Positions 11,343-60,750 of a stretch of DNA of 64,000 bases are shown piece after piece. Each line of letters opens with the position of its first letter. The stretch's first letter is position 1. Below the pieces are notes generated by a model. That model was not told the origin of the DNA and did not search any database. It was given only the letters and a program-made list of their open reading frames with translations. Position numbers and translations under genes: made by a program. Where the stretch lies: positions 5,580,001 to 5,644,000 of the forward strand of contig NZ_AP022614.1 of the NCBI RefSeq assembly GCF_010730575.1. Reading direction: 5' to 3'. The DNA comes from Mycobacterium parmense (lineage in GTDB: Bacteria > Actinomycetota > Actinomycetes > Mycobacteriales > Mycobacteriaceae).

Positions 11343-11365
11343 CCGATATATAGATAACTATTTAG
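11343..11365 (+). promoter_or_regulatory. Candidate operator, copy S3 of the 23-bp element
   Basis: The sequence fits the core TAnATAnCTnnTTAG shared by four sites in the window and has 18 of 23 bases in common with the site at 47778-47800. It lies between the divergent TetR gene and the mce operon. Whether it controls TetR, mce or an unseen transcript is unknown. Confidence 0.55.
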
Positions 11366-11817
11366 CTTTACCCGTCACTTCGGTTGGCCACTTTTGTGCG
11401 CTGGATCGCCGTCCTCCGCGCGGCTGAGTAAGCCTCGGGCGGGAGGCCGGTTAGTCGTGATCGGCGATTAATTGCCTCGCCTGTGGGGGGCGGCGTTGAT
11501 CCATGGTGGTATGCACCGCATGGGCACATTTGGAGCCCGGGCGAGTGGACATCACGCTGACGCTGGAAAGTTCGTAGCGCTGCCTTCGTGCGTAACCGCA
11601 GCTCAGGACCCCGTCAGCGGCTCAACTCGACTTGAGAGCGCCTAAAGAAGTAGGGGGCCGAAGGCGGGCCAGTATGGACTCGATCCCGATCAGCGGCCGC
11701 CTGTGATGCTGGAAATGCAGGGGATGCGTCCGCACTTCTTTGAGCCGATTTAGGTCACAATCTCTTTATTTTCTCCGATAGCAATAAGAGAAGCGGTTGA
11801 AGCATCCTGCCTCGCAA

Positions 11818-11840
11818 CAGGTGCTATTGTCTGGCACCTG
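11818..11840. promoter_or_regulatory. Perfect inverted repeat upstream of mce
   Basis: Arms CAGGTGC (11818-11824) and GCACCTG (11834-11840) flank a 9-base spacer in the AT-richer part of the mce upstream region. The 23-base dyad has the size of a dimeric repressor site, but an RNA hairpin is equally possible. Confidence 0.4.
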
Positions 11841-12361
11841 ATGATTAAATCAACGAGGGTGCTGACTGGAAATAGATACGCGCCAATATCATAGTTTCCA
11901 ACTATTGACAGAAATCCTAATGCGCAGCCGAAGCACTTAACCAACAGCAAACTTGATGACGTTGGACTGGCCACGATGCGGCTGATGCTTCGCGTGGGCG
12001 CCACTGGTCCGGTTGGGTGTGGCCGATCAACCGGCCTTGCGATGTCTACTAGGCCGGATGGGTGCGGCACTGTTCGACAGAAGTAGAGCGAGCCTCGCTG
12101 ACGCCTCGGTCCCGTCGGTGAGTATTACGACATTTCAACCAAAAATGTCGGAACCTACAGCAAACCGCCGCAGTCGCGCTCGCGCCACTTGGCGGGTTTG
12201 TCCAAAATGGCGTTTGGCGATGTTGCCCTGACTTAATGTAATGGTGTAGCGTGCGCTGTGCTCTGGGCCACACCGTTCGAAAGACAGCAGCACGCCATAC
12301 CTGCTGCGGGGAGGAATCATCGTCTAATGTCGGCTCCGACTGGTTACAAACGAGGGCGCTA

Positions 12362-13216
12362 GTGGTAGTGGCGGACACAGCACCTCTCCCCGCCGTGACC
12401 GGCGCGCCGGAGGACGGGGTGATCTCAGGGGTGGTCTCCCCCGCAGGAACCGCTCGGCTCGCGGTCGCCGGCAAGCCGCTACGCGAGGTTGGTAGCTACT
12501 TCGCATTGACTCTCGACATCTTCATGCAGTTGGTGCGCCCGCCGTTTGCTTGGCGGGAATTCGTCCATCAGGCGTGGTTCGTTGCTCGGGTGTCGATCGC
12601 CCCGACGATCTTGTTGGCGATTCCGTTCAACGCGCTCAGTGTCTTCATCATCAACGTTCTGCTCGTCGAGATCGGCGCCGCCGACGCATCAGGTGCTGGC
12701 GCTGCGCTGGCGAGCGTCGCCTACATCGGCCCGATAACCACGGTGCTTGTCGTTGCGGGTACCGGCGCTACCGCGATTTGTGCTGACCTGGGTGCTCGGA
12801 CCATCCGCGAAGAGCTCGACGCGATGCGGGTGATGGGGATCAACCCGGTGCAGCGACTGCTGGTTCCCAGGGTCTTGGCGCTGTGCCTCAACGGGTTGTT
12901 GCTTAATTCGATCAACACCATCGTCGGCTTGGTCGGCAGTTTCTTCTTCTCGGTGTACTTTCAGCACGTCACTCCGGGTGCCTGGGCGGCGAGCCTGACG
13001 CTGCTGGTCAAGATCACCGACGTGGCCATCGCCTTCTTCAAGGCGGCGTTGTTCGGCCTGGTTGCTGGGACCATCGCGTGCTATAAGGGCGTCACGGTTG
13101 GTGGGGGACCCCAAGGTGTCGGCAACGCGGTCAACGAAACCGTGGTGTACACGTTCATGGCGTTGTTCGTGATCAACGTCGTGCTAGTCGCGGTCGGCAC
13201 GAAGGTGACGATGTGA
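12362..13216 (+). CDS. yrbEA: YrbEA: Mce-system ABC permease subunit A
   Basis: This is a MlaE/YrbE-type permease that pairs with YrbEB in the inner membrane to form the transport channel of an Mce lipid importer. The family signature IREELDAMRVMGINP, the loop thought to couple to the MceG ATPase, lies at about residues 155-170. Several membrane helices are visible, and TVGGGPQGVGNAVNETVV lies near the end. No ATPase is encoded nearby, as usual for mycobacteria, where MceG is elsewhere. The start is uncertain: I chose the GTG at 12362 (GAGGG at 12351-12355 lies before it), giving 284 residues; GTG 12368 also fits. It opens an operon running to 23341. Confidence 0.88.
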   Translation: MVVADTAPLPAVTGAPEDGVISGVVSPAGTARLAVAGKPLREVGSYFALTLDIFMQLVRPPFAWREFVHQAWFVARVSIAPTILLAIPFNALSVFIINVLLVEIGAADASGAGAALASVAYIGPITTVLVVAGTGATAICADLGARTIREELDAMRVMGINPVQRLLVPRVLALCLNGLLLNSINTIVGLVGSFFFSVYFQHVTPGAWAASLTLLVKITDVAIAFFKAALFGLVAGTIACYKGVTVGGGPQGVGNAVNETVVYTFMALFVINVVLVAVGTKVTM

Positions 13217-14097
13217 CCGCCGCCCCCGCCCGACACCGCCCGATGAGCGCGACTCTCGCACCGCCGCGGTTGGCGCGATTGTCGATCACCATGCGTCGCT
13301 TGGTCGCCGGGTGGAATCGACTGGGAAGCCAAACCGCGTTCTACGCGAAGGCGTTGAGTCTGATTTGGGATGCGGTCGCCCGTTACAAGGCTGAGACGCT
13401 GCGACTGATCGCCACTATGAGTCTGGGTATCGGTGCGCTGGCCGTCATCGGCGGGACCGTGGTGGTCGTCACCACACTGGTCATGTCGACCGGATCGTTC
13501 ATCGGTATCCAGCTCTACCGATCATTGTCCGATGTTGGTGTGGAGGCTTTGAGCGGTTTCGCCTCGGCCTACCTCAACACCCGTTTCGCCGCGCCGCTGA
13601 CCGCCGCCATCGGGCTTGCCGCGACCATCGGCGCCGGAGCCACCGCACAGCTGGGAGCTATGCGCATCAACGAGGAGATCGACGCCTTGGAAGTGATGGG
13701 CATCCGCGCGATCAGCTACCTGGCATCAACGCGAATCGTGGCTGGCGTGCTGGTTACCGTTCCGTTGTGGTGCCTGTCGTCGCTGGCCGGGTATCTGGCG
13801 ACGCGAACGTTGGTGGTCGTCGCCTTCGGGCAGGCGCCCGGGGTCTATGACCACTACTTCAACACCTACTTGCAGCCCACCGACTTGATCTGGTCACTGC
13901 TGCAAGTGATGGCGACTGCAACGGTCGTCATGCTGGTGCACACCTACTACGGCTTCAACGCGACCGGTGGCCCAGCCGGCGTCGGCGAGGCTGTCGGCCG
14001 CTCGGTGCGCGCCTCACTGGTCGTGGCGGTGACGGTGCAGTTGGCGGTGGCAATGGCCGCCTACGGGGTGTCCGGCAACTTCAACCTGTCTGGATAG
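13213..14097 (+). CDS. yrbEB: YrbEB: Mce-system ABC permease subunit B
   Basis: This 294-residue permease is the partner of YrbEA. It has multiple membrane helices and the family loop INEEIDALEVMGIRA at about residues 152-166, plus YYGFNATGGPAGVGEAVG near the C-terminus. Its GTG start overlaps the YrbEA stop (GTGA), which implies coupled translation and a 1:1 complex. The N-terminal 25 residues are basic and cytoplasmic. mceA follows four bases after the stop. Confidence 0.92.
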   Translation: MTAAPARHRPMSATLAPPRLARLSITMRRLVAGWNRLGSQTAFYAKALSLIWDAVARYKAETLRLIATMSLGIGALAVIGGTVVVVTTLVMSTGSFIGIQLYRSLSDVGVEALSGFASAYLNTRFAAPLTAAIGLAATIGAGATAQLGAMRINEEIDALEVMGIRAISYLASTRIVAGVLVTVPLWCLSSLAGYLATRTLVVVAFGQAPGVYDHYFNTYLQPTDLIWSLLQVMATATVVMLVHTYYGFNATGGPAGVGEAVGRSVRASLVVAVTVQLAVAMAAYGVSGNFNLSG

Positions 14098-14101
14098 CGC
14101 G

Positions 14102-15571
14102 ATGAGGAAGATGCAACGTGAAGCTGGCCTGCCACCGGCGCTCTGGACTCTCATCCTCTTGGTCACGATCGCCGGCTTGGTCATGCTCACGGTGGCGGCG
14201 TTCAACAGAGACCTGAGGCCCTACGCGAGGGTGACCCTCACCTCCGACCGCTCGGGTCTCATCATGGAACCAGGCGCCAAGGTGAAGTTGCGCGGTGTTC
14301 AGGTGGGCCGGGTTACCTCGATTCACTCAGGCGATCCCGTGACGCTGCGGCTGGAGCTCTACCCTGAGCAGCTCCAATACATCCCGGCCAACGTAACCGC
14401 CCAGATCACCGCCACCACGGCGTTCGGGGGCAAATACGTCGATCTTCAGATCCCCGAAAGCCCGAGCCCCAGACACCTCGCGGCGGGTGCCGTGGTGCGG
14501 TCACGCAACGTGACCACCGAAGTCAACACCGTGTTCCAGAACCTTGTTGCGGTGCTCGATAAGGTCGACACGCCGAAGCTGAACGCCGTGCTCACCGCGC
14601 TGGGCGACGGGTTGCGCGGCAAAGGGGAGGCCCTCGGTGAGGCCACCACCGACCTCAGCGAAGTCCTCGGGGCGATCAATCCCCGCAGTGAGACAATCCG
14701 GGCCGACTACCGTGCACTAGAAGGGTTCAGCGATACCTACAGCGCGGCCGCACACGACCTCGTTACGGTGCTCGATGCGGCAAGCACCACCAGCGCCACT
14801 GTGAGCAAGAATGCTCGGGCCCTGGATTCGCTGCTGCTCAACGTCATTGGACTCTCTCGCAGCGGCATCGAGTTGATCGGCCCGAATAAGGACAACCTCG
14901 TGCACGGCGTCAACCTGCTCGAGTCGACCACTCGGCTGCTGATGAAGTACAACCCGGAACTGACCTGCACGCTGCTCGGCGCCAAGTACGACTCTGAGTT
15001 TTTCTCTGACGTATCGGGCGGCCACAACGGGTACTCGGTCACCCTCGACGTCGCGTTGCTGCTGGGTGACGAGGCATACCGATTCCCCGACAATCTCCCG
15101 GTCAACGGAGCCAAAGGCGGGCCCGGTGGACAGCCCGGCTGCGGATCGCTACCCGATGTTTCCAAGAACTTCCCGCAGCGCTATCTCGTCACGAACACCG
15201 GGTGGGGGAGCGGCTTGGACATGCGACCCAACCCCGGCATCGGTTTCCCGGGGTATGTCGACTACCTCCCGGTAACCCGTGGAACGCCTCAGCCGCCCAG
15301 CCTTCGCCATCCGGGAGGGGTGGCGCCTGGTCCGATCCCGTACCCCGGTGCGCCACCGTACGGGGCGCCGCAGTACGCGCCGGACGGGTCGCCGCTGTAT
15401 CCGGGTTTGCCACCCGCGCCCCCGCCGGGACGACCGCGAGAAGGCGGCCCGCCGCCGGCGGGGTCTGAACCCTTCGTACCGCCAGCACCGGCGGCAATCC
15501 AACCGACCTGCGGAGTCGTCACCCAGGTGTGCGACCCGCTGCCACCGCCACCATATGTCCCGGGGCCATGA
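14102..15571 (+). CDS. mceA: MceA: Mce-family substrate-binding protein
   Basis: This 489-residue protein has one N-terminal membrane helix (about residues 12-34), then the MCE domain (about 40-115, with KLRGVQVGRVTSI), a long helical region and a Pro/Gly-rich tail from about residue 390 ending PPPPYVPGP. It should sit in the cell envelope as one of six Mce proteins forming a tunnel for hydrophobic substrates. The Pro-rich tail is long. The start is the ATG four bases after yrbEB. Confidence 0.92.
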   Translation: MRKMQREAGLPPALWTLILLVTIAGLVMLTVAAFNRDLRPYARVTLTSDRSGLIMEPGAKVKLRGVQVGRVTSIHSGDPVTLRLELYPEQLQYIPANVTAQITATTAFGGKYVDLQIPESPSPRHLAAGAVVRSRNVTTEVNTVFQNLVAVLDKVDTPKLNAVLTALGDGLRGKGEALGEATTDLSEVLGAINPRSETIRADYRALEGFSDTYSAAAHDLVTVLDAASTTSATVSKNARALDSLLLNVIGLSRSGIELIGPNKDNLVHGVNLLESTTRLLMKYNPELTCTLLGAKYDSEFFSDVSGGHNGYSVTLDVALLLGDEAYRFPDNLPVNGAKGGPGGQPGCGSLPDVSKNFPQRYLVTNTGWGSGLDMRPNPGIGFPGYVDYLPVTRGTPQPPSLRHPGGVAPGPIPYPGAPPYGAPQYAPDGSPLYPGLPPAPPPGRPREGGPPPAGSEPFVPPAPAAIQPTCGVVTQVCDPLPPPPYVPGP

Positions 15572-15608
15572 CTGCCGCCGCGTCGAGAAGAGTTAGGGGA
15601 GGGCAGCA

Positions 15609-16637
15609 ATGAAAGAGAACCTAACTGGGACGCTATGGCGTCTCGCCATCTACCTCGTCGTCTCAGTCCTAGGCATGTTCACGCTGGTCGCCGTTTTCGG
15701 TCAGCTGCGCTTCCAGGCTGAGAAGACCTACAAAGCGCAGTTCGTGAACGTGTCGGGATTGGAGGGCGGAAACTTCGTCCGTATCGCCGGTGTCGAGGTC
15801 GGCAAAGTCAAGAACATCACCGTCGAGCCCGACTCCACCGTTCTCGTCGAATTCACCGCGTCAGACAACGTGGTGCTCACCGAGGGAACCAGGGCCGCCA
15901 TCCGTTTCGCGGACCTCACCGGCGGCAGATATGTCGCACTAGAAGAGGGAGCGGGCAACATCAGGCGACTCAGTCCAGGCGGGACCATCCCCTTGGCTCG
16001 TACCGAACCGGCACTCGATCTGGACGCATTGATAGGCGGTTTCCGGCCTCTGTTCCGGGCGCTGGACCCAGAGCAGGTCAACAAGCTAACCGGGCAACTC
16101 ATCGCGGCCTTCCAAGGTCAGGGCGGCACGATCGGCTCATTTCTCACCCAGGCCGCCGCCCTGACTAACACCTTGGCCGACCGAGACCACCTGATCGGTC
16201 AGGTCATCGTCAACTTAAACACTGTGCTCGGTTCGCTCGGGGGCCAAAGCGGTCAGTTCGCGCGTGCCGTCGACTCGCTGTCCGAACTGGTGGCGGGGCT
16301 TGAGGCTCGCAAGCAGGACATCAGCAACGGCGTGGCGTATGCGAACGCTGCCGCCGGGTCGATCACGGAATTGCTGGCCCAAGCCCGGCCGCCGGTGAAA
16401 AAGGTTGTGCACGAGGCGGATCGCACCGCTGCAACGGTGTTGGCCGACCACGACTGGCTCGAAAAATACCTCGACGACTGGCCCGCCGCGTTCAAGATTC
16501 TGAACAGGCAAGGCTTGTACGGAGACTTCTTCAGCTTCTACCTGTGTGACATCGTGCTGAAGGTCAACGGCAAGGGTGGCCAGCCGGTATATATCAAGCT
16601 GGCCGGCCAGGCCAGCGGCAGGTGCACGCCGCGATGA
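15609..16637 (+). CDS. mceB: MceB: Mce-family protein
   Basis: This 342-residue protein has an N-terminal membrane helix (about residues 12-32) followed by the MCE domain (VSGLEGGNFVRIAGVEVGKV at about 46-65) and a helical tail ending in AGQASGRCTPR. It is the compact member of the set, with no Pro-rich extension. The ATG at 15609 is preceded by a strong AGGGGAGGG purine run. The stop overlaps the ATG of mceC. Confidence 0.92.
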   Translation: MKENLTGTLWRLAIYLVVSVLGMFTLVAVFGQLRFQAEKTYKAQFVNVSGLEGGNFVRIAGVEVGKVKNITVEPDSTVLVEFTASDNVVLTEGTRAAIRFADLTGGRYVALEEGAGNIRRLSPGGTIPLARTEPALDLDALIGGFRPLFRALDPEQVNKLTGQLIAAFQGQGGTIGSFLTQAAALTNTLADRDHLIGQVIVNLNTVLGSLGGQSGQFARAVDSLSELVAGLEARKQDISNGVAYANAAAGSITELLAQARPPVKKVVHEADRTAATVLADHDWLEKYLDDWPAAFKILNRQGLYGDFFSFYLCDIVLKVNGKGGQPVYIKLAGQASGRCTPR

Positions 16638-17956
16638 AAACGTTCTCCGAACGCAATCCCTTCGTCATCGGCGTCATCGGGCTGGGTGCGGTTTTTACAC
16701 TCATGCTGCTCTCCCTGAACTACGACAAGTTGCCGTTTTTCCATAACGACAGAACGTATTCGGCGTACTTCGCCGAAGCGGGCGGCCTGGAGCCCGGCAA
16801 CCACGTCCAGGTATCGGGTTACCGGGTCGGGCAGGTCGACAGCGTCGGGTTGGACGGACCGCGCGTGCTGGTGAAGTTCACCGTCGCTCGGAATCTCCGC
16901 CTCGGTGAGCGCACCGAGGCAGCGATCAAATTGCGGACCGTGCTGGGTAGCAAGGTCCTCGAGGTCAGCCCTCGTGGCGAGGGGCAGCTGACCGGACCGA
17001 TCCCGCTGGAGCGAACCACATCGGCTTATCAGCTGCCTGACGCGCTCGGCGACCTCACCGCGACAATCAGCGGTCTCAACACCGACCAGCTGTCTCAATC
17101 GCTTGCGGTACTGGCCAACACCTTTGCCGACACCCCACCCGACCTGAAGGCTGCGGTGCAGGGAGTGGCGCGATTCTCGCATACCCTGGATGAACGCGAC
17201 GGTCAGCTACGGACCCTGCTGAGCAATGCCAACAAGGCGACCACAGTCCTGGCCGAGCGCAGCGACGAAGTGGCCCAGCTCGTCCGCAACACCAACTCAC
17301 TGTTGACGCAACTGAGAAGCCAAAGCAACGCGCTGGACCAGATTTCCAACAACCTTGCTGCGCTGGCCCGCCAACTCAAAGGCTTCATCGCCGAAAACCG
17401 CGACACGTTGAAGCCGGCCCTCGACAAGCTCAACGGTGTGCTGGAGATCGTCGACAAACGCAAGGAGAACGTACAGAAGGCGCTCGTCGGGCTCAACAAA
17501 TACGCGCTGGGCCTGGGCGAATCGGTGTCCTCCGGGCCCTTTTTCAAGGCCTACGTCGTCAACCTTTTCCCGGGACAGTTTGTGCAGCCGTTCATCGATG
17601 CAGCGTTCTCCGACCTCGGCCTAGACCCGAATGTGTTGCTGCCCAGCCAACGCGCCGACCCACAGGTTGGCCAGCCCGCGACACCGCCACTGCCCATGCC
17701 GTATCCGCGAACCGGCCAGGGCGGGCCACCGCGGATGACGCTGCCCGACGCCATAACCGGCAATCCGGGTGACCATCCGTGTGGTCCGGGCGCAGCCTCG
17801 TCGGGGCCCGGCTGCTACCCCTACCGGGAGCCGCTTCCCGCTCCTCCTCCAGGTGGGCCACCACCAGGGCCACCGGCGCAGCCGGGTCAAGGCGCGGGCC
17901 AGTCAGCACCGTCGCCGGGGCCAGCGCAACCAGGCGAAGGGGGTGGGGGACGATGA
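16634..17956 (+). CDS. mceC: MceC: Mce-family protein
   Basis: The ATG at 16634 overlaps the mceB stop (ATGA) and gives 440 residues; a GTG at 16622 is the alternative. A membrane helix lies at about residues 10-30, then the MCE domain (GGLEPGNHVQVSGYRVGQV). A long predicted helical region spans about residues 130-290, and a Pro/Gly-rich tail follows from about residue 350. The product is an envelope component of the importer, with the family's usual order maintained in the operon. Confidence 0.91.
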   Translation: MKTFSERNPFVIGVIGLGAVFTLMLLSLNYDKLPFFHNDRTYSAYFAEAGGLEPGNHVQVSGYRVGQVDSVGLDGPRVLVKFTVARNLRLGERTEAAIKLRTVLGSKVLEVSPRGEGQLTGPIPLERTTSAYQLPDALGDLTATISGLNTDQLSQSLAVLANTFADTPPDLKAAVQGVARFSHTLDERDGQLRTLLSNANKATTVLAERSDEVAQLVRNTNSLLTQLRSQSNALDQISNNLAALARQLKGFIAENRDTLKPALDKLNGVLEIVDKRKENVQKALVGLNKYALGLGESVSSGPFFKAYVVNLFPGQFVQPFIDAAFSDLGLDPNVLLPSQRADPQVGQPATPPLPMPYPRTGQGGPPRMTLPDAITGNPGDHPCGPGAASSGPGCYPYREPLPAPPPGGPPPGPPAQPGQGAGQSAPSPGPAQPGEGGGGR

Positions 17957-19296
17957 GTTACCGCGGCGCGAGGATCGGGGTGGCCATCGCGCTCGTAGCG
18001 GTGCTGCTCGGCGGAATCGTCACCGTGGTGCGGTCTGCTGCAGGGGTCGGTCGCACCACCGTCGTCGGATACTTTGCCAACAGCACTGGCCTCTACAAAG
18101 GTGACAGCGTCGTTATTCTCGGAGTGCCGGTCGGTAAGATCGAAAAAATCGAACCACAACCCGAACATGTGCGAATCACCTTCTGGTTCAACGACAAATA
18201 TAAGGTGCCCGCTGACGTCAAAGCGGCTATCCTGTCGCCTTCCCTGGTGACGCCCCGGTCTATCCAGTTGACTCCCGCCTATACAGGCGGCCCCGTGCTG
18301 GCCGACCATGCGGTAATCCCGCAGCAACGTACCGCGGTACCGGTGGAGTATGACGACTTCCGTCAGCAGCTGGAGAAGCTTGCGCAGGTGCTGCAGCCGA
18401 CCGCTCCGGGTGGAACCAGCACTTTGGGGGAGTTCATCAACACCGCGGCCGACAACCTTCGGGGCCAGGGCTCCGACATTCGCAAGACTGTTATCGAACT
18501 TTCGCAGGCGATTTCAGCGCTCGGCGACCATAGCAATGACCTGTTCAGCACCGTGAAAAACCTGTCCATTCTGGTCTCCGCACTGCACGACAGCAGCGAC
18601 CTGCTCCAACATCTGAATCAGAACCTTGCCGAGGTCACCGGTCTGCTCGCCAACGACCCCAACGAGGTCGCTAATGCTGTCCGCAACCTCAACGACGTGG
18701 TTGGCGACGTCCGAGACTTTGTCGCCGAGAACCGAGAAGCGCTGGGTACGACGTCGGACAAACTGGCGTCAGTGACTCAAGCCGTGAACGACAGCCTCGG
18801 TGACGTCAAGCAGCTGCTGCATACCGCACCAACGGCATTCCAGAACTTCCTCAACATCTACCAACCCGCACAAGGGACGTTGACCGGTGCGCTGGCCTTC
18901 AACAACTTCGCTAATACAATCCAATTCCTTTGTGGGGCAGTAGAAGCCGCATCACGTCTAGGTGCCAAAGAATCAGCCAAGTTGTGTGTCCAGTATCTGG
19001 CGCCGATCATCAAGAACCGCCAAGTGAATTTTCCGCCCCTCGGTGAAAATCTCTTCGTCGGAGCGGCGGCGCGCCCCAACGAACTCACCTATAGCGAGGA
19101 CTGGCTGCGCCCAGATTATATTCCGCCGCAACCTGACTCCCCGCCAACTCAGGGCCCGGCAGCGTCGGCCGCTGGGTCGACCCCGGCCGAAACCCCGCCG
19201 CCGGCAGCGGACGGGCCGGGGCCAGCGCAGGCGGCGCCAACAAACCCGGCTGACGGTTTACGCGGAATGATGGTGCCGCCCGGAGGTGCACAATGA
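17953..19296 (+). CDS. mceD: MceD: Mce-family protein
   Basis: The ATG at 17953 overlaps the mceC stop (ATGA) and gives 447 residues. The N-terminal helix (about residues 8-28) is followed by the MCE domain (STGLYKGDSVVILGVPVGKI at about 44-63), a helical region and an Ala/Pro-rich tail. The frame is open further upstream inside mceC, but that part reads as a shadow. The position in the operon and the N-terminal motif set it as the D component. Confidence 0.91.
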   Translation: MSYRGARIGVAIALVAVLLGGIVTVVRSAAGVGRTTVVGYFANSTGLYKGDSVVILGVPVGKIEKIEPQPEHVRITFWFNDKYKVPADVKAAILSPSLVTPRSIQLTPAYTGGPVLADHAVIPQQRTAVPVEYDDFRQQLEKLAQVLQPTAPGGTSTLGEFINTAADNLRGQGSDIRKTVIELSQAISALGDHSNDLFSTVKNLSILVSALHDSSDLLQHLNQNLAEVTGLLANDPNEVANAVRNLNDVVGDVRDFVAENREALGTTSDKLASVTQAVNDSLGDVKQLLHTAPTAFQNFLNIYQPAQGTLTGALAFNNFANTIQFLCGAVEAASRLGAKESAKLCVQYLAPIIKNRQVNFPPLGENLFVGAAARPNELTYSEDWLRPDYIPPQPDSPPTQGPAASAAGSTPAETPPPAADGPGPAQAAPTNPADGLRGMMVPPGGAQ

Positions 19297-20453
19297 GTCG
19301 ATCAACACTTTGGTGTCGCGCGATGGTGGCGCTCCTGGCAGTGGTGGCGCTTACAACACTGTCCGGCTGCGGGTTTCGAGGTCTGAACTCGATCAGTTTG
19401 CCGGGGACAAAAGGCGGCGGCCCGGGCGCATATACCATCCGCGCCCAAATGCCCGATGTGCAGAATTTGCAACGGAATTCGCGGGTCCGGGTCAACGACG
19501 TGACGGTCGGCAACGTTACCGACATAGAACTTCAGGGTTGGAATGCGTTGGTCACCATGACGATCGACGGCGATGTCGACCTCCCCGCCAATGCAACCGC
19601 TACCCTCGGTCAAACCAGCTTACTGGGTTCGGTGCACGTCGAACTGGCGCCTCCCGCGGGAATAGCGCCGCAGGGCAAGCTGACGAACGGCTCGTTGATT
19701 CCCCTGTCGTCGGCCGGCGCCTACCCGTCCACCGAGCGCACACTGGCCGCTGTGTCGCTGCTGCTTAACGGCGGCGGCCTGGGTCAGATTCAAGACATCA
19801 CCAAGACGTTGAGCACTGCCTTCAGTGGGCGCGAACAAGATTTGCGAAACCTGCTGAATCAGCTCGATACGTTTGTCGGCTACCTCAATGACCAAAAGAG
19901 CGACATCATCGCCGCAATGGACCACTTCAACAGTCTCGTCGGGCAATTTGCCGATCAGAAACCGATTATTGACAAGGCGCTGAAGACCATTCCGGAAGCG
20001 TTGACCGTGCTCAAAGACCAGCGAGAAAACCTCGCCAACGCCCTGGGTGAAGTCGGCAAGTTGAGCGCGCTCGCCGCCGACTCGGTTAACAAGACCAAGG
20101 AAAACCTAATCAAGGAATTGAAAGACCTTGGGCCCGTGCTGCAATCGCTAGCCGACGCCGGGCCCGCATTGACTCGGTCGCTGGGCTTCCTCGGGACATT
20201 CCCGTTCCCCGCATCGACACTCAGCAAATGGGTGCGCGGAGATTATGCGAACCTGACGGCGGTAATCGACTTGACGCTGAGTCGGCTCGACGCGGGGTTC
20301 TTCACCGGCACCCGCTTCGAGTGCAATCTAACCGAGCTCGAGTTGCAGTGGGGCCGCACCATCGGACAGATGCCCAGCCCGTGCACCGGGGGCGGACCTT
20401 ACAACCCGGGCAACCCCTTGGTTGTTCCCTACCATTTCGACCAGGGGCGCTGA
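19293..20453 (+). CDS. mceE: MceE: Mce-family lipoprotein
   Basis: This 386-residue protein carries the lipoprotein signal expected of the E component: hydrophobic VALLAVVALTTLSGC with the lipobox LSGC (Cys about residue 26). The MCE domain follows (QNLQRNSRVRVNDVTVGNV at about 57-75), then helical segments. It should be lipid-anchored on the outer face of the plasma membrane. The ATG overlaps the mceD stop, and mceF starts two bases after its stop. Confidence 0.93.
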   Translation: MSRSTLWCRAMVALLAVVALTTLSGCGFRGLNSISLPGTKGGGPGAYTIRAQMPDVQNLQRNSRVRVNDVTVGNVTDIELQGWNALVTMTIDGDVDLPANATATLGQTSLLGSVHVELAPPAGIAPQGKLTNGSLIPLSSAGAYPSTERTLAAVSLLLNGGGLGQIQDITKTLSTAFSGREQDLRNLLNQLDTFVGYLNDQKSDIIAAMDHFNSLVGQFADQKPIIDKALKTIPEALTVLKDQRENLANALGEVGKLSALAADSVNKTKENLIKELKDLGPVLQSLADAGPALTRSLGFLGTFPFPASTLSKWVRGDYANLTAVIDLTLSRLDAGFFTGTRFECNLTELELQWGRTIGQMPSPCTGGGPYNPGNPLVVPYHFDQGR

Positions 20454-20454
20454 G

Positions 20455-45510: not shown

Positions 45511-45520
45511 GGGCTTCCTT

Positions 45521-47777: not shown

Positions 47778-47800
47778 CTAAACAGTTATCTATAACAAGG
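47778..47800 (-). promoter_or_regulatory. Candidate operator, copy S4 of the 23-bp element
   Basis: On the minus strand the site reads TATAGATAACTGTTTAG in its second part and fits TAnATAnCTnnTTAG. It shares 18 of 23 bases with the site at 11343-11365. It lies in the divergent promoter between the acyl-CoA dehydrogenase operon and the aldehyde dehydrogenase operon, 51 and 41 bases from their starts. Confidence 0.62.
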
Positions 47801-47841
47801 TACACTAGCCCACGCCGACAATTCTGCGAGAGGGAGCGCCA

Positions 47842-53233: not shown

Positions 53234-54427
53234 TCACTTCGAGAACAATTCGGCGATGAGTTGCCGGCGTTGCGACCAGTCTGCTGCGCGCAGGTCGACG
53301 TATCCGGACTCGGTGACGATGACGTCCACGTCGTAGGCGGGTGTGGACGCAGGCCGGCTGAGCTGCTCGACGAGCGGCGAGCGTCCGTTCACCTGAGTTG
53401 GAACGGCGATGATCGACAGACCGCCGCAGCTCATCCTCGCGGCGGCGCAATAGTCGGGATGCCCGCCGATTCCACCGATCACCTTGTCGCCCAAACCCTC
53501 GACGTTGATCTGCCCGTATGGGTCGATCTCGATGGCGGTGTTCACTGCGACCAGCGGTGACCCGCGCGACAGCCGGGCAAGGTCGTGGGTGTAGTCGAGG
53601 CCGCGCAGAATCCGGCGTCCATCGGCCCAGTCGTAGAGAGCGTCGCTGCCCAGGAGATACGTAGCCGACGGTGTACCCGCCAGCAGGCCGCGCCTGTCGA
53701 GGTCGACGACGGCGTCGGTGAGTAACCCGGTGTCGATATGCAACGGCACCTGTGCCCGGCGCAGCAGTGCGGTGCCGAGCTGGCCTGGCCCGTACTGGAC
53801 CCGGGCGCCTTTGGGCAGCAGCAAAAGTACCGTGTCGGCGAGGGCGTCGTGAATCGGTTCCGGCTCGCGCTGCGGCACTCGCACCGGTCCGCTCCCGACG
53901 GTTCCGAGCACTTCGACTTCCGACGGGTCGAGTCCAGGCTCGGCATCCGCCCCGGGCGCCGAGGTGTCTATGATCGCGAGTGCCCTTGTGCCGTTGCGGA
54001 TCGCCGCGCGTTGCCACGAGACCTCGGTGCCGAACTGCAGCAAATCATTCCGGCGTACCAGCCGGGTGAGCAGCACCTGAGGCCGCAACACGTCAGCCAG
54101 CAGAGCGGGAATCGCGGCCAGCCGCGTCGGCAGGAATCGCACCGTCGAGCTGCGCAATACGTCACGCACGCCCCAACCGGGCATCAACGCAATGACTTCG
54201 GCGAATGCGTCTGTGTCGAGGCCGTCGATCGGGGCGGGCAGCCAGCCCAGTACCAGGCGCACCGAGCCCACCTCGCCGGCGGCGGCGCTCAGCGCCGCTC
54301 CGACCGACCCGCCGTCGTCGAGGCAGCGCAGTGCGCCCACCCCGTCGCCGAGGGCCACTGTCATTCCGGGGCGCAGCGCGGCGCGCAGCGCTACGGTCAA
54401 CTCAGTTGTGGTCAAAGCTGTTGTCAT
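53234..54427 (-). CDS. Acetyl-CoA hydrolase/transferase family protein (4-hydroxybutyrate CoA-transferase-like)
   Basis: The ATG at 54427 overlaps the stop of the upstream dehydrogenase (ATGA) and gives 397 residues. The C-terminal half has the family stretch NTAIEIDPYGQINVEGLGDK, with the catalytic Glu position, and GGIGGHPDYCAAARMSCGG. Such proteins use a Glu-CoA intermediate to transfer CoA from one acid to another, or to hydrolyse acyl-CoA. It probably recycles CoA in the side-chain pathway; donor and acceptor unknown. Confidence 0.83.
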   Translation of the reverse strand: MTTALTTTELTVALRAALRPGMTVALGDGVGALRCLDDGGSVGAALSAAAGEVGSVRLVLGWLPAPIDGLDTDAFAEVIALMPGWGVRDVLRSSTVRFLPTRLAAIPALLADVLRPQVLLTRLVRRNDLLQFGTEVSWQRAAIRNGTRALAIIDTSAPGADAEPGLDPSEVEVLGTVGSGPVRVPQREPEPIHDALADTVLLLLPKGARVQYGPGQLGTALLRRAQVPLHIDTGLLTDAVVDLDRRGLLAGTPSATYLLGSDALYDWADGRRILRGLDYTHDLARLSRGSPLVAVNTAIEIDPYGQINVEGLGDKVIGGIGGHPDYCAAARMSCGGLSIIAVPTQVNGRSPLVEQLSRPASTPAYDVDVIVTESGYVDLRAADWSQRRQLIAELFSK

Positions 54428-56739
54428 CGAGGCTCTTTGGGAAGCCCGAGCACCCGCTCGCCGAGGATATTGCGCTGGATCTCGCTGGTGCCGCCCAGGA
54501 TCGTCTGCGCCCGCCCGACCAGCATGTGGTGCACCAGCCCGTCGTCCGCTGGGTCGGTGCACGCGTCGGTGCCCAGAACTTCGGTGGCCATGTCCCCGAG
54601 GTCCTGATCGGTTTCCGAGGTCATCAACTTCAGCACCGAGAAGGCCGGCGACGTGAGGTCACCGGAGTCGATGGCGCGCTGCCAGGTGTAGCGCAGCAGC
54701 CACATCCTCGCCCATAACCGGGTCATCGACCTCGACAACACGGGGTCGAGCAGGTCGTGGTCACGGGCCGCATCGACCATGCGCTCGTGCATCCGGAACA
54801 TCGATACCGCTTGGGAACCCAACGTCAGGCGCTCACGGCCCAGCGTCACCATCGCCACGGTCCAGCCCTGGCCGACGTCACCGATCAGGGCGTCTTCGCC
54901 GAGTTCGGCTCCATCGAAGAAGACTTCGTTGAACTTGCTTTCGCCGTCCATCTGCATCAGCGGGCGCACCATGACCCCCGGGATGTCCATGGGCACGATG
55001 AACATCGACAGATCCCGGTGCTTGTCCGGACCGGTGCGGGCGAGCAGCAGGCCGAAGCGGGCCGAGGCGGCGGCCGAACTCCACACCTTCTGACCATCGA
55101 TCCGCCAGCCCATGGCGGTGCGCTCGGCCCGGGTGCGCACGCCGGCGAGGTCTGAGCCGGCGCCCGGCTCGGAGAAGAGCTGACACCAGACGTCGTCGCC
55201 CACTCTGATCGGCTCCAGGTAGCGATCCTTCTGCTCCTGGCTGCCGAACTTGATCAGCACCGGTCCGACCAGGTCGGCGCCGGTGATGTTGAGCTGACGG
55301 GGCACGTCGGCTCGTGCGCATTCCTCGGCGAAGACGGCCTGGTACGTGACTGTCGCTGCGGCACCGCCGAACTCACGCGGCCAGTGCAGGCAGGCGTAGC
55401 CGTGGTCGGCCAGGTATCGGTGCCAGATCCGGCCGGGTTCGACGTCGTCCGCAGTGGGTGTGGGCCCGTAGTTACGCAGACCGGCCGGCCGCGGTGCCTC
55501 GTGCAGGAACGAGCGGATCTCCGCGCGTAGGGCGTCGACGTCGTTCAGGTCTTTCGTCACTTCTGGCGACGCCGGCGGCTGAGTCGACGGGTCCAGCGCA
55601 GACAGCCGATCCCAGTGTTGAGCTGGGCTGCCGAACACCACCTCGTCCGTGCGGGCGCGCCGAAAGTACAGGTGCGCGGCATCCTCCCAGGTGAAGCCGA
55701 TGCCGCCGTGAATCTGGACGTTCGCTTTCGCGGCGTTGCACAGCGCCTCCGAGCACACCGCCTTCGCCATGCTCGCGCGCCAGCCCGCTTCGCCGGCGAC
55801 CGCGGTATCCGAACCGTCCAGGGCATCCAGGGCCGCCTGCGAGGCCGACCGTGCCCACTCGAGATCGACCAGCATGTCGGCGCACTTGTGCTTGATGGCC
55901 TGAAAGCTGCCGATCTGCCGACCGAACTGTTCGCGGGTGCGGGCGTATTCGGTGGCGATCTCGAGCACCCGTTCGCACGCGCCCACCTGTTCGGCCGACA
56001 ACACCGCCAGTGCAATGTCGACGTTGCGGTCGACGACGTCGTCGATGGGGCCGTCGCCAGACAGCCGCAGTGCCGGCGCCGCGCTGAGCGTGATGGTGGC
56101 CATCGGCCTGGTGCCGTCGAGGACCCGTTCGGCCTCGGCGACGACACCGTCGACGGTGGGGTCGAGCAGGAACAGCGCCGGCTCGCCGTGTTCGTCGATG
56201 GCGACCACAACGAGGTCGTCGGCAGCGGACCCGCCCAGCACGTGGCGCACCGTGCCGTCGATGTTCCAGTCGTCCCCGGTGCGGGCGGCGCTCAGCGTCA
56301 CCGCGGACCGACGCCACAACCCGCCGTCGCCCGTGAGCGCTGCGGCCGCGGTGCGGCGACCCTCGATCAGACCGGTGAGCCGCTTGTCAGCATCGGGATC
56401 GCGCTCGGTCAAGTCGAGCAGCAGGCCGGTGGCCAGCACCGTGGAACTGACGAACGGCACCGGGGCCAGCGCGCGGCCGAGTTCGTGAGCGACCACACCC
56501 AGCACGGACACGCCGTAACCTGCACCGCCCAGTTGCTCGGGCAGCGCGATGGCGGCCACCCCCACCTGGTTGCACAGCACGTCCCACAGCACCGTGTCGA
56601 ACCCGGAATGCCCGTCTCCGCCGCGGCCGCCCTCGCCGTATGCGACGGCGCGCACTCGGTCCTCGGATGCCAGTCGCTCACAGGCGGAGCGCACCGATTG
56701 CGCAAGTTCCTGACGCTCGTCAGCGGACAACGCCGTCAT
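54424..56739 (-). CDS. Fused two-domain acyl-CoA dehydrogenase (FadE34/ChsE3-like)
   Basis: The ATG at 56739 has AGGAGG nearby and gives 771 residues. Residues about 1-370 form one acyl-CoA dehydrogenase domain (LPEQLGGAGYGVSVLG; EYARTREQFGRQIGSFQAIK; VQIHGGIGFTWEDAAHLYFR), and about 385-771 a second (LHWPREFGGAAATV; FSEPGAGSDLAGVRT; GQKVWSS; TILGGTSEIQRNILGERVLG). The layout equals a split alpha/beta pair joined end to end, as in FadE34. Overlaps with both neighbours (ATGA) show a tight operon with the ligase. Confidence 0.9.
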   Translation of the reverse strand: MTALSADERQELAQSVRSACERLASEDRVRAVAYGEGGRGGDGHSGFDTVLWDVLCNQVGVAAIALPEQLGGAGYGVSVLGVVAHELGRALAPVPFVSSTVLATGLLLDLTERDPDADKRLTGLIEGRRTAAAALTGDGGLWRRSAVTLSAARTGDDWNIDGTVRHVLGGSAADDLVVVAIDEHGEPALFLLDPTVDGVVAEAERVLDGTRPMATITLSAAPALRLSGDGPIDDVVDRNVDIALAVLSAEQVGACERVLEIATEYARTREQFGRQIGSFQAIKHKCADMLVDLEWARSASQAALDALDGSDTAVAGEAGWRASMAKAVCSEALCNAAKANVQIHGGIGFTWEDAAHLYFRRARTDEVVFGSPAQHWDRLSALDPSTQPPASPEVTKDLNDVDALRAEIRSFLHEAPRPAGLRNYGPTPTADDVEPGRIWHRYLADHGYACLHWPREFGGAAATVTYQAVFAEECARADVPRQLNITGADLVGPVLIKFGSQEQKDRYLEPIRVGDDVWCQLFSEPGAGSDLAGVRTRAERTAMGWRIDGQKVWSSAAASARFGLLLARTGPDKHRDLSMFIVPMDIPGVMVRPLMQMDGESKFNEVFFDGAELGEDALIGDVGQGWTVAMVTLGRERLTLGSQAVSMFRMHERMVDAARDHDLLDPVLSRSMTRLWARMWLLRYTWQRAIDSGDLTSPAFSVLKLMTSETDQDLGDMATEVLGTDACTDPADDGLVHHMLVGRAQTILGGTSEIQRNILGERVLGLPKEPR

Positions 56740-58226
56740 CGGGTTCCTCCTGCGATCTGCCGGGCCAGCTCGGACTTGGCGACCTTGCCGAGCCCCGTCA
56801 GCGGGAACTCGTCGACCAGGACGAGCCGCTCGGGCCACTTCTGCTTCATCAGCCCGCGTTGGTCGAGGAACGTGCAGAGCTCGTCGAGGGTGACGTCGCG
56901 ATGGCGTGGCGAACGGCGCACGACCGCGCACACCAACTCGCCGCGCAGTTCGTCGGCCTGGCCGAGCACGGCGATCTCGTCGACCAGGGGGTGGGCCAGC
57001 AGTTCGTTCTCGATCTCGTCAGGGGCTACGTTCTCGCCCTTGCGAATGATCAAATCCTTGGTGCGGCCGGTGACCACGATTCGCCCGTCCGGGCGAAGGT
57101 GGCCCCGGTCGCCGCTGCGGAACCACCCGTCGGCGGTGAGTGCGTCGGCCCACTGGTCGTGCTGCAGATATCCCGGTGTCAGGTTGTCGCCACGCAGCTC
57201 GATCTCGCCGCTCGCTGCGATCCGCACCTGCGATCCAGGGATGGGCCGGCCCGCGCTGTTGGCCAGTTGCTCGTCGGTGTCGGTGGCCTCGCTGACGCAG
57301 ATCATCGGCGCCTCGGTCATTCCGTAGGCATGCACGACCGGAACGCGTAGGTGTTCACGCACCTGTCGGTGCACCTCGGGCGGACACGGGGCACCCCCGC
57401 CGATCAGCATCCGCAGCGACGGCACCAGCAATTCGGTTGTCGGCGCGGCCATCTGGGCGGCCAGCAGCATCTGGTAGAACGCGGTGCTAGCTCCGGTCAC
57501 CGTCACCTGATGTTCCGCGAGCACCCGGGGCAGGTCGCCTGCGGAAACTTTGGGGATGAGCACCACGGGAAAGTCGCCGAACAGAGCGGTTGCGAGGTAG
57601 ACCATGCCGCCGATGTGGCAGATGGGAAAGGCGATCGTGCCGACTTCCCGCGGATGGCTGCCCACGCCGAGATGCGCGACATAACCGCGGGCGGCGCTGA
57701 GCAAGGTGGTGTCGGTGTGGCGCACGGCTTTCGGGCGCCCGGTGGTGCCCGACGTGAAGTACACCCAGCGCGGCTCCGCTGCGCGGTGGGGCGCTTCGTA
57801 CTCGGCGCTTACGGCCGGCGACGTCTGGAGCCGGCGGACAAAGTCGGCGGGGACCGTGATTGTCGGTAGCCCAGGTGCGGCATTGGCGGTCGTCGACTCG
57901 TCGACCAGCAGGATGTCCGCGCGTGCGACGTCGACCGCCGCGCACACCTCGCGGCACCGATAGAGGTGCAACACCGGGGCCTGCGTAACGGGCATGCGGG
58001 CCAGCGCAAGCATCACCACCGCGGCGTTGACGTTTGAGGGCAGCTGCCAGGCGACCGTCATGCCGGGGCGCACACCGGCATCTGCCAACCATTCCGCGGC
58101 GGCCGACGCCAGCGCGGCTACCTGCGAGATGGTGAGTGTCTCGCCGTCGACGTCGCGCAGCAGCGGACGATCCGGTCGGCCGGCGGCGCACTCATCCAGC
58201 AGCCCGGCGATGGTGCCAGCCGTCAC
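56736..58226 (-). CDS. Acyl-CoA ligase (FadD/AMP-binding)
   Basis: The GTG at 58226 follows GGGAG and gives 496 residues. It has the AMP motif YFTSGTTGRPKAVRHTDTT, HAYGMTEAPMICVSE, FRSGDRGHLRPDGRIVVTGR and the Lys-bearing TGLGKVAKSELARQI. It would convert an acid to acyl-CoA. The stop overlaps the fused dehydrogenase start, suggesting that the ligase product is its substrate. The P450 gene (58252-59472) lies upstream on the same strand, separated by 25 bases. Confidence 0.9.
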   Translation of the reverse strand: MTAGTIAGLLDECAAGRPDRPLLRDVDGETLTISQVAALASAAAEWLADAGVRPGMTVAWQLPSNVNAAVVMLALARMPVTQAPVLHLYRCREVCAAVDVARADILLVDESTTANAAPGLPTITVPADFVRRLQTSPAVSAEYEAPHRAAEPRWVYFTSGTTGRPKAVRHTDTTLLSAARGYVAHLGVGSHPREVGTIAFPICHIGGMVYLATALFGDFPVVLIPKVSAGDLPRVLAEHQVTVTGASTAFYQMLLAAQMAAPTTELLVPSLRMLIGGGAPCPPEVHRQVREHLRVPVVHAYGMTEAPMICVSEATDTDEQLANSAGRPIPGSQVRIAASGEIELRGDNLTPGYLQHDQWADALTADGWFRSGDRGHLRPDGRIVVTGRTKDLIIRKGENVAPDEIENELLAHPLVDEIAVLGQADELRGELVCAVVRRSPRHRDVTLDELCTFLDQRGLMKQKWPERLVLVDEFPLTGLGKVAKSELARQIAGGTR

Positions 58227-58251
58227 CGTGTTCTCCCGTCCCGGCCGGCCG

Positions 58252-59472
58252 TCAGCCCACCCGCGGCCCGGGCGTGAAACTGACCGGCAGTTCGCGCACG
58301 GCGTACACCTCGCCCGCGTCCTCGAACAGTTTCGGATCACCGGCCAACTCGAAGTCGGGTAGCCGCTTGAGCACCTGGGTGATCATCACGTCGAACATCA
58401 GCTTGGCATAGTGCGAACCGAGGCAGCGGTGCATGCCCACACCGAAAGCCATGTGCTTCTTGGCATTCGGGCGATCCAGGTCGAGTTCGTCGGGGTTCTC
58501 GAACATTGCGGGGTCACGGTTCGCGGCAGCCCACATCAGGATCGCCCGGTCGCCCCGGCACAGGTGTTGGCCGTGGAAGTCGGCGTCGCGCGAGACGGTG
58601 CGCGCCAGGCCGAGAGTCGGCGTGTAGAGGCGCAGCAGCTCATCGGTGGACTTCTTCACCAGGCTCGGATCGGCCTTGAACTTAGCGCGCAACTCGGAGT
58701 CCTTACACAGCCGCAACAGCACGTTGCCGGTGAATCCACTGGTGGTGTCCATACCACCGAGCATCATCAGCACCGTGTACATGGTGATCTGACCGTCGTC
58801 GAGAGGCTTGCCGTTCAGCGTTCCGCGCAGGATGTCGCTGAACAGGTCATCACCGAGTCCCTCGGCCCGGCGCTGCTCCATGTGCTTGCCGATCTCGCCG
58901 AACATCTCCATCCCCGCGATTGCGGCCTTCTCCGGGGCGTGGGCACGGTCGTGCACGGTGGTGTGCACCCAGCCGACCCAGTCCATGAACCGCGACTCGT
59001 CGAAGTTCAACAGCCGCAGAATCAACCGCGCCGGCAGCGGGGTTGTCAGCTCACCGACCAGGTCGCACTCGCCTCGCTCGATGAAGGCATCGATCGCCTC
59101 ATTGGTCATCTCGATGGCGGACTCGCGGAACCGCTCCGCCGAAGCCGGTGAGAAGCGCTTGAGGGTGACCTCGCGCAGCTCCTGGGTCTCGGGAGGATCC
59201 GACTCGATCGGCAGGATCGGCAACGGCAGCTCGCTGGCCGGCACACCCACCGACGGATAGGAGTTGAACAGGTCGTCGTTGCGGGCCGCCTCGAAGACAG
59301 ACGCATAGTCGACCAACGCCCAGAAGCCTTCGTAGTGCTCGGAATGTGCGACCGGGCAGCCCAATTCGCGCATCTCGCGGAACCGGCTGTAGGGGTCCTC
59401 GCGGAACTCGGGCGAGTGGTGGTCGAGGTCGACCTCGGCGCGTGGACGCGATTCCGCCTGGGTGTCGGTCAT
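58252..59472 (-). CDS. Cytochrome P450
   Basis: The ATG at 59472 gives 406 residues. The I-helix reads GGMDTTSG, the K-helix ELLRLYTPT with TLGLARTVSRD after it, and the haem loop FGVGMHRCLGSHYAKL (Cys about residue 356). It belongs to the mycobacterial class I type needing external ferredoxin. In this operon (thiolase - P450 - ligase - fused FadE - CoA transferase - SDR) it could make the carboxylate that the ligase then activates. The specific CYP family cannot be set by eye. Confidence 0.92.
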   Translation of the reverse strand: MTDTQAESRPRAEVDLDHHSPEFREDPYSRFREMRELGCPVAHSEHYEGFWALVDYASVFEAARNDDLFNSYPSVGVPASELPLPILPIESDPPETQELREVTLKRFSPASAERFRESAIEMTNEAIDAFIERGECDLVGELTTPLPARLILRLLNFDESRFMDWVGWVHTTVHDRAHAPEKAAIAGMEMFGEIGKHMEQRRAEGLGDDLFSDILRGTLNGKPLDDGQITMYTVLMMLGGMDTTSGFTGNVLLRLCKDSELRAKFKADPSLVKKSTDELLRLYTPTLGLARTVSRDADFHGQHLCRGDRAILMWAAANRDPAMFENPDELDLDRPNAKKHMAFGVGMHRCLGSHYAKLMFDVMITQVLKRLPDFELAGDPKLFEDAGEVYAVRELPVSFTPGPRVG

Positions 59473-59497
59473 CGGCAGTACTCCCTTCGGGTGGCCG

Positions 59498-60652
59498 CTA
59501 CTTGGACAAGATGGCGACAGCTGCGGTTCCCGGTGCGCCGTACAGCTGGGCCAGCGCGACCTGCGGATCGTTCGGTACCTGGCGGTCACCGGCGGCCCCG
59601 CGCAATTGCTGAACCAGCTCGTAGACCTGGCGAAGGCCGGATGCACCGACCGGTTCGCCGTTGGCCAGCAGCCCGCCGTCGGTGTTGATGGGCAGCCGCC
59701 CGCCGATCTTGGTGGCGCCGTCGGCGAGCAGTGCTTCTTGTTCGCCGTCCTTACAGAGACCTGTCTCGGCCATGTGGATGATTTCGGACCCCGAGTCGGT
59801 GTCTTGCAGTTGCGCAACGTCGACGTCCTCGGGACCTATCCCGGCCAACTCGTAGGCGGCGCGGGCGGCCTCAGCGGTAGTGCCGGGCATGATCGGCAGC
59901 TCGATCGAGGTACGAAGGAGCTCGTAAGCGCCTTCGCGGCGGCTGCGCAGCGCGGTGGAGCGCAGGTAGATCGGAGAGTCGGTGTAGTGCTTGGCTTTAT
60001 CGGCCCGGCACACCACCACGGCGGCAGCGCCTTCGTTCGGGTTGCAGTACATGTATTGACGCAGCGGTGCGTTCACGACCGGAGAGCTCAGGATCGCGTC
60101 GACGCTCATCGGCTTGCGGCGCCATGCATGCGGCGCCAGCGCTCCGTTGTCGAAGTTCTTGGCGGCAACGCGGGCCAAGGTCTCCTCGGTGATGCCGTGA
60201 TCGTGCATGTAGCGCATGATCTTGGTGCCGAAGTAATGCGTGGTCAGGAACATGCCCTGGTCGCCGTACCACTGCGGCAACCCCGACACCGAAGGGTCCG
60301 CGCCGAAGGCGCCGCGCGGGTGCTTGTCCAGCCCGACGCCGATCGCAATTTCGGCTTCGCCGAGTTGCACGTCTCGCGCGGCCAGGGTCAACAGCGAGTT
60401 TCCGGTCGCGCAACCGCTCAACGTGGCACGCGCCGGAAGGCCGGTCATCCCGGCCAACCCGGTCACCGCCTCGGGATTGGACACCTCGAGGCTGCCCGCG
60501 TACAGGCTGCCCACGTCGGACCACGCCACCCCGGCATCGCGCAGTGCCCTGCTGATCGCCACGGCGCCCATCTCCAGTGCCGACCGGTCCTCGTACCGCC
60601 CGAACGGGTGGAGGCCGACGCCGATGATGGCGATCTCGGGCCTGCTGCTCAT
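59498..60652 (-). CDS. Ltp2-like thiolase-fold enzyme (lipid-transfer/aldolase type)
   Basis: This 384-residue protein has the nucleophile segment LSGCATGNSLLTLA (Cys about residue 81), then AQLQDTDSGSEIIHMAETG and INTDGGLLANGEPVGASGLRQ. The His of the thiolase HPxGA motif is absent (GEPVGA) and no second catalytic Cys is visible (LYGAPGTAAV). This matches Ltp2-type proteins that cleave side chains by a retro-aldol reaction, usually with an OB-fold partner. The only OB-fold protein seen here is at 39471-40691. The gene heads the minus-strand operon and has element S2 in its promoter. Confidence 0.88.
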   Translation of the reverse strand: MSSRPEIAIIGVGLHPFGRYEDRSALEMGAVAISRALRDAGVAWSDVGSLYAGSLEVSNPEAVTGLAGMTGLPARATLSGCATGNSLLTLAARDVQLGEAEIAIGVGLDKHPRGAFGADPSVSGLPQWYGDQGMFLTTHYFGTKIMRYMHDHGITEETLARVAAKNFDNGALAPHAWRRKPMSVDAILSSPVVNAPLRQYMYCNPNEGAAAVVVCRADKAKHYTDSPIYLRSTALRSRREGAYELLRTSIELPIMPGTTAEAARAAYELAGIGPEDVDVAQLQDTDSGSEIIHMAETGLCKDGEQEALLADGATKIGGRLPINTDGGLLANGEPVGASGLRQVYELVQQLRGAAGDRQVPNDPQVALAQLYGAPGTAAVAILSK

Positions 60653-60727
60653 TGTGTTCCCTTCAGCATGCGCCTCTGTCGAACCCAGCCGTCGACGGGA
60701 GCGTGCGTTGACTTAGATACCGCCAAG

Positions 60728-60750
60728 CCTATAACTATATATCTGATTAG
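60728..60750 (+). promoter_or_regulatory. Candidate operator, copy S2 of the 23-bp element
   Basis: The site contains CTATAACTATATA and GATTAG and equals S1 at 39411-39433 at 20 of 23 positions. It is placed almost exactly in the middle of the 174-base divergent promoter, 75-76 bases from the starts of the thiolase and ligase genes. Confidence 0.65.

Follow-up and report, generated by a model that had tools for sequence, protein, structure and literature searches.

Organization of the locus and register of the element

The window analysed here is a stretch of 64,000 nucleotides of Mycobacterium parmense (assembly GCF_010730575.1, contig NZ_AP022614.1, positions 5,580,001 to 5,644,000). It carries an mce importer operon, one TetR and two GntR regulators, and catabolic genes encoding P450, short-chain dehydrogenase/reductase (SDR), acyl-CoA dehydrogenase, thiolase and ligase proteins (Table 1). 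Spread over about 50 kb of this DNA are six copies of an AT-rich 24-bp element, S1 to S6, which is very probably the operator of the FadR-type GntR regulator encoded at 43517-44257.

Four of these copies had been described in the initial annotation as a shared 23-bp element. These 23-mers, starting at 11343, 39411, 47778 and 60728, are indeed present at those positions and on the strands given, with 12 of 23 columns invariant, and three of them (39411, 47778 and 60728) separate genes that diverge from each other. The two pairwise identities reported are also right, 20/23 for 39411 and 60728 and 18/23 for 11343 and 47778, but the labels attached to them did not follow the order in which the sites were listed: pairs taken in that order (11343/39411 and 47778/60728) share 15/23 each. 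Thus the sites are real, whereas the register and extent had to be revised. Once aligned with orthologous promoters, the unit is 24 bp long and occurs six times, and the 23-mer frame, now replaced, sets 11343 and 47778 8 bp out of register with 39411 and 60728. The displaced 23-mers could still be aligned because the element is self-similar at an 8-bp shift. An alignment anchoring all sites on TAACT was also abandoned: it placed S1 on the wrong strand, and the ortholog sites gave the correct one. The block AATGCTATAACTATATAGCTCATT of the S2 promoter is conserved against a variable intergenic remainder; the other promoters hold conserved blocks of their own, and all of them align as one 24-bp element with a consensus close to AATCnTATAACTATWTAGCTGATT. 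Besides the correct register, the initial annotation had missed S5, S6, which lies at the promoter of the regulator itself, and the second GntR gene (25755-26537).

The centre of S2 is about 50 bp from the start of each flanking gene and that of S4 about 84 and 90 bp, while S3 is about 58 bp from the aldehyde dehydrogenase gene, S5 about 57 bp from the likely enoyl-CoA hydratase start and S6 about 41 bp from the GntR gene, several of these starts being chosen among candidates. The longest reading frame of the acyl-CoA dehydrogenase next to S3 (GTG 47805; 47728-47805, minus strand) overruns the site; translation more likely begins at the in-frame TTG of 47727.

Table 1. Sites, regulators and candidate target genes of the window; operon extents and target assignments are predicted
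Feature	Position	Strand	Basis or remark
S1	11340-11363	-	AAATAGTTATCTATATATCGGTTT; between TetR gene and mce operon; 11343-11365 in the initial annotation
S2	39408-39431	+	AATGCTATAACTATATAGCTCATT; between SDR 38505 (-) and KAS-like/OB gene 39471 (+)
S3	47772-47795	-	TTATAGATAACTGTTTAGCGGATT; between acyl-CoA dehydrogenase (-) and aldehyde dehydrogenase 47842 (+)
S4	60725-60748	+	AAGCCTATAACTATATATCTGATT; between thiolase 59498-60652 (-) and ligase 60827 (+)
S5	34552-34575	+	AATCATACAACTATTTCGCTACTT; between SDR 33619-34449 (-) and enoyl-CoA hydratase (+, likely ATG 34621)
S6	44287-44310	+	AATCAACTAACCATTTAGCAGGTT; GntR gene promoter, not divergent
FadR-type regulator, proposed binder	43517-44257	-	GntR and FCD domains (Pfam), distribution, alignment
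TetR regulator beside S1, possible local co-regulator	10390-11016	-	Pfam
Second GntR/FCD regulator	25755-26537	-	Same domains as the first GntR
mce importer operon, proposed S1 target	12251-21930	+	MlaE- and MlaD/Mce-type genes (Pfam)
CYP143-like P450 and two SDRs, proposed S5 target	31637-34449	-	Pfam; PDB sequence search
Enoyl-CoA hydratase-like gene, proposed S5 target	34621-35448	+	Pfam
SDR, two acyl-CoA dehydrogenase-type genes, SDR, proposed S2 target	35461-39368	-	Pfam
KAS-like/OB-fold protein, SCP2-type thiolase, enoyl-CoA hydratase-like gene, proposed S2 target	39471-42670	+	Pfam
Three acyl-CoA dehydrogenase-type genes, proposed S3 target, start inferred	44368-47727	-	Pfam
Aldehyde dehydrogenase, class III CoA-transferase, glyoxalase-fold protein, proposed S3 target	47842-51502	+	Pfam
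Thiolase, P450, AMP-binding ligase and acyl-CoA dehydrogenase domains, proposed S4 target, putative operon	54424-60652	-	Pfam
AMP-binding ligase, proposed S4 target	60827-62326	+	Pfam

Specificity of the element in the genome

The pattern TANATANCTNNTTAG has four exact matches in the genome (5.95 Mb, single contig), and these are the four original sites. A sequence model built from the four retrieves them, as it must by design, and no further match anywhere in the genome at E <=10. The many equal matches at random positions that the initial annotation had considered as counter-evidence were thus not found. When one mismatch is tolerated, the pattern matches seven times against four for its reversed version, and therefore this loose form cannot extend the list of sites. 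In leave-one-out trials within the window, each held-out site came fourth, directly after its three training sites. Model R2, made from 28 sequences including the six window sites, gave seven genome-wide matches at E <=10, which are the six sites with S1 counted twice.

A matrix derived from the S2 and S4 sites of other species, free of window copies, ranks the six sites first to fifth and seventh among all window positions. Rank 6 is S1 on the opposite strand and ranks 8-11 are shifted or opposite-strand readings of the sites, so that the first non-site appears at rank 12, with 9.4 bits vs 15.9 for the weakest site. When each ortholog group was left out in turn, no non-site of the window scored above the held-out site. 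Model R1 run on 61 genomes at E <=0.1 returned two matches, both in its own genome, a threshold too strict for a 17-bit model and hence uninformative; no Rfam family was found in 8200-61000.

A weak candidate for a seventh site, AAAACGCTAACTGTTTTAATGTTA at 8635-8658, lies upstream of a CAP-domain gene (8797-9561). It scored 18.0 with a symmetric matrix of the six sites but fell outside the best 14 of the final matrix and was dropped. At two related loci (L025 and L026), a good site is present between the CAP and KAS-like orthologs.

Conservation at orthologous loci

For comparison, we used 47 loci around orthologs of the KAS-like/OB gene and 220 further mycobacterial loci or upstream stretches. 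Counts refer to the matrix of alignment A2 at a score of at least 15, and each ortholog group includes the copy of the window. The element is found at 44/49 KAS-like loci (S2), 43/46 thiolase loci (S4), 47 of the 49 GntR promoters examined out of 56 ortholog rows (S6), and 14/15 TetR-ortholog loci (S1). The loci lacking it are L142, L143, L144, L147 and L160 for KAS, L231, L232 and L209 for the thiolase (a contig end cuts the upstream region of the last), L272 and L275 for GntR, and L122 for TetR. These counts are only descriptive, because some sequences of the matrix derive from the same loci; it is the controls and the cross-group test described above that carry the weight. Loci of KAS and thiolase paralogs gave 0/40 matches, with a top score of 8.0, and those of TetR paralogs 2/15, while 40 column-permuted matrices found on average 0.40, 0.38, 0.75 and 0.53 matches in the KAS, thiolase, GntR and TetR groups, respectively.

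Many genes of the neighbourhood share 97-99% identity with their counterparts at the M. scrofulaceum and M. nebraskense loci. Further away, KAS promoters of Williamsia and Nocardia (L034, L036, L038 and L042, at ~9928) display a variant of the element with clearer CTAAT/ATTAG arms.

Internal architecture of the element

From the orthologs, 93 24-mers were collected and seven discarded as off-target (four S3, one S5 and two S6); symmetry and repeats were then counted on at most seven sequences per group, 42 in all. Self-match at a shift of 8 reaches 0.53 vs 0.30 in permutations (p 0.001 at this shift, 0.005 against the best of shifts 3-12). The similarity concerns adjacent 8-bp units, 1 with 2 (p 0.004) and 2 with 3 (p 0.0185), the outer two not being alike (p 0.52). 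Dyad symmetry is best at centre 12.5 (p 0.006), but p is just 0.055 once all centres are allowed, and a plain palindrome was not retained as the organizing feature.

Co-distribution with the GntR regulator

The 43517-44257 protein combines an N-terminal winged helix of GntR type (PF00392, E 1e-17) with an FCD domain (PF07729, E 2.5e-21). Its nearest solved relatives by sequence are NanR (6on4, E 2.8e-15), PdhR and LldR. In the ortholog alignment, D101, H153 and H224 of the FCD domain are invariant and H202 nearly so; we take this set of one Asp and three His to be the metal/effector pocket.

Among 297 mycobacterial genomes, GntR orthologs (E <=1e-60) occur in 47 and KAS-like orthologs (at least 62% identity) in 48, both being present in 46. 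We scanned with R2, at E <=1, 40 mostly complete genomes that we had chosen before the matches were known, 26 with and 14 without the GntR ortholog. Matches were found in 24/26 of the former and 1/14 of the latter (Fisher p 1.1e-7), the sole exception among the latter, G318, having a single match at E 0.65. The GntR-containing genomes gave 143 matches, of which 130 are no more than 50 kb, and 140 no more than 100 kb, away from a GntR copy. The two genomes with KAS but no GntR, G180 and G318, score 3.4 and 11.6 at KAS, both below 15. Conversely, G157 possesses GntR without a KAS ortholog and carries the element directly upstream of GntR (score 23.0); in G122 and G183, where GntR is far from KAS, the element again directly precedes GntR (19.3 and 18.4). 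Retention of the element at isolated GntR genes is, as far as comparison of sequences can tell, the pattern of an autoregulated binder.

Which regulator reads the element?

That one regulator controls the block, as the initial annotation had proposed, is well supported by this co-distribution and by the conservation at orthologous loci. Binder candidates were the regulators encoded in the window, TetR and the two GntR proteins. We hold it highly probable that the element is the operator of the 43517-44257 GntR, which would repress the S1-S6 promoters until a lipid-derived effector releases the protein from DNA.

Several observations weigh against this assignment. S1 is separated by 327 bp from the TetR gene and by about 890 bp from the leading mce gene, long distances for a promoter operator. 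Model R3, trained only on S2 and S4 as they occur in other species, recovers these two alone across the genome at E <=10 and misses S1, S3, S5 and S6, and several of the other models and matrices include sites of the window itself. Two genomes with GntR, G122 and G203, lack a site of at least 15 at KAS, and R2 finds nothing at E <=1 in G122 and G157. KAS promoters of Williamsia and Nocardia retain the element while the best GntR homolog there is 47% identical, with no element of at least 15 directly at its own promoter; in Gordonia, an ortholog of 71% identity has only a weak match (11.5) at its promoter. Finally, the common operator core of the FadR subfamily, TKGT-N3-ACMA, from which NanR and BioR depart (PMC4494728), is absent from all six sites. 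The missing core lowers the case for a typical FadR operator, not for membership of the protein in the FadR subfamily.

Another reader, either the second GntR or a regulator encoded elsewhere, is unlikely, as judged from the regulators of the window. The Williamsia and Nocardia promoters, with the element and no close ortholog of the first GntR, would speak for it, and the second GntR has the same domains, is 36% identical to the first and resides in the same block. But this protein matches 140/297 genomes (E <=1e-80), and it is present in 5 of the 14 scanned genomes without the first GntR (G002, G011, G034, G078 and G120), where operator matches are totally absent. Moreover, its own promoter displays a different conserved element, TACTCAGTA, at 11/12 ortholog loci, which is thus a candidate operator of the second GntR. 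On this distribution, together with the different element at its promoter, it was rejected as binder. Another sequence considered as its operator, TAGACATGT (26554 and 27647), is at chance level, since 7/100 shuffles reach the two loose matches seen in the window. As for the distant homologs, the proteins of 47% identity have an unchanged recognition stretch, SRPTLREAFRVLESESL, and the second GntR a different one. This fits one operator read by the first GntR and these homologs, and does not amount to proof.

TetR 10390-11016, the other binder suggested in the initial annotation, adjoins S1, which its orthologs retain in nearly all loci, and part of the element is a dyad. Yet as binder of all sites it is very improbable and, as a general one, was rejected on its distribution: it matches 31/297 genomes at E <=1e-40, the orthologs (at least 73% identity) number just 15, all of them in GntR-containing genomes, and S2 and S4 sites are present in many genomes beyond these 15. 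Just two of the 15 TetR paralog loci carry the element. Thus, between the two candidates named initially, GntR fits and TetR does not.

That the element is an AT-rich promoter or nucleoid-protein feature is hardly credible, even though the sites are AT-rich in 65% GC DNA and located at promoters, as column-permuted matrices of equal composition find almost nothing at those loci, 13 of the 14 genomes without GntR have no R2 match, and no sigma-70-type match was called around S2, a weak test in which S2 alone was scanned.

Proposed mechanism and gene set

Sites, their conservation, their confinement to the locus and their co-distribution with the GntR gene were computed here; from them we infer binding, repression and autoregulation as follows. 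The 43517-44257 GntR would bind the 24-bp sites, which overlap the divergent promoters at S2-S5, the promoter of its own gene at S6 and the TetR/mce region at S1. Bound GntR would most likely repress these promoters, including that of its own gene; repression is proposed because the positions of the sites overlap promoters. A carboxylate or acyl-CoA derived from the imported lipid would then bind the FCD domain and lead to release of DNA. This class of effector is likely given the conserved D101, H153, H202 and H224 and what is known of the family. Upon release, one mce importer and about 30 P450, SDR, acyl-CoA dehydrogenase, thiolase and ligase genes would be switched on together.

S1 is proposed to control the TetR gene and/or the mce importer, and S6 the GntR gene with a thioesterase-like gene. 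Since the site between TetR and mce is kept in 14/15 loci, the mce operon probably belongs to the regulon, in line with the "perhaps mce" of the initial annotation; yrbE is seen on the other side of S1 in 11/15 TetR-ortholog loci, within the 1.5-kb flank. Between S1 and the first mce gene, 11372-12250 is a region of about 880 bp without a gene of typical third-position GC.

The P450s, the acyl-CoA dehydrogenases, the thiolases with an OB-fold partner, a KshA-like oxygenase and mce suggest a polycyclic or branched lipid as substrate. The P450 at 31637-32851 (minus strand) has CYP143 of M. tuberculosis among its best PDB matches (E 1.7e-158). The name KAS-like is our own, Pfam giving only OB_ChsH2_C for that protein; a sequence search of the PDB at E <=0.001 found no relative. 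The Rieske oxygenase with a KshA C-terminal domain (27744-28796, plus strand), which diverges from a luciferase-like monooxygenase, is a hint that the substrate is steroid-like.

Comparison with known systems

The system is of a known kind. KstR and KstR2 are TetR proteins in which one regulator governs many lipid-catabolic promoters and an mce importer, with motif cores AAC-N2-GTT and CAAG-N2-CTTG. The proposed regulon resembles theirs as a single regulator would act across lipid-catabolic promoters and mce, but the reader would be a GntR protein and the motif is another one, both cores being absent from the six sites. Local catabolic regulators of the FadR subfamily have similar domains and their genes likewise reside inside the controlled cluster. 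Their operators are often near the middle of divergons (PMC4494728). Compared with typical members, the operator here is about 24 bp, spread over about 50 kb, and the regulon would include an mce operon.

The NanR operator consists of closely spaced (GGTATA)3 repeats (PMC8012715). NanR is the nearest solved relative by sequence, and the 8-bp self-similarity recalls these repeats; on the other hand, units 1 and 3 are not alike here, GGTATA repeats are absent from the six sites and, at 119.1 bits, the protein is under the NCBIfam NanR cut-off of 260. A bolder picture, in which the FadR-type regulator stacks as dimers in a NanR-like manner on overlapping 8-bp-phased repeats and serves a regulon with its own mce for a further lipid or terpenoid line beside the mce systems of M. 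tuberculosis, is tentative and in our opinion rather doubtful. BioR, also of the FadR subfamily, has an unusual AT-rich box, TTATMKATAA (PMC4494728). S3 holds TTATAGATAA, which fits this box, whereas the other five sites do not contain it in full and the neighbours here are not biotin genes.

Mce2R of M. tuberculosis, a GntR repressor of an mce operon, is encoded at the head of mce2, as its first gene, and acts mainly on that operon (PMC3847441). Unlike regulators of the Mce1R/Mce2R type, the 43517-44257 GntR is encoded among catabolic genes, about 31 kb away from mce. In titles and abstract openings of the open-access literature, a coverage which leaves aside subscription papers, no description of this regulator, operator or regulon was found.

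For an mce-linked catabolic locus present in 46/297 mycobacterial genomes, about one in six, this work provides a likely regulator, an operator and a list of genes. In the genomes that carry the locus, the operator offers a means of delimiting the regulon. The ligand of a single protein would indicate the substrate, and the cargo of this mce transporter would thereby become a directly testable question. If the proposed circuit is true, a single sensor protein governs genes for the uptake and breakdown of lipids in several mycobacteria.

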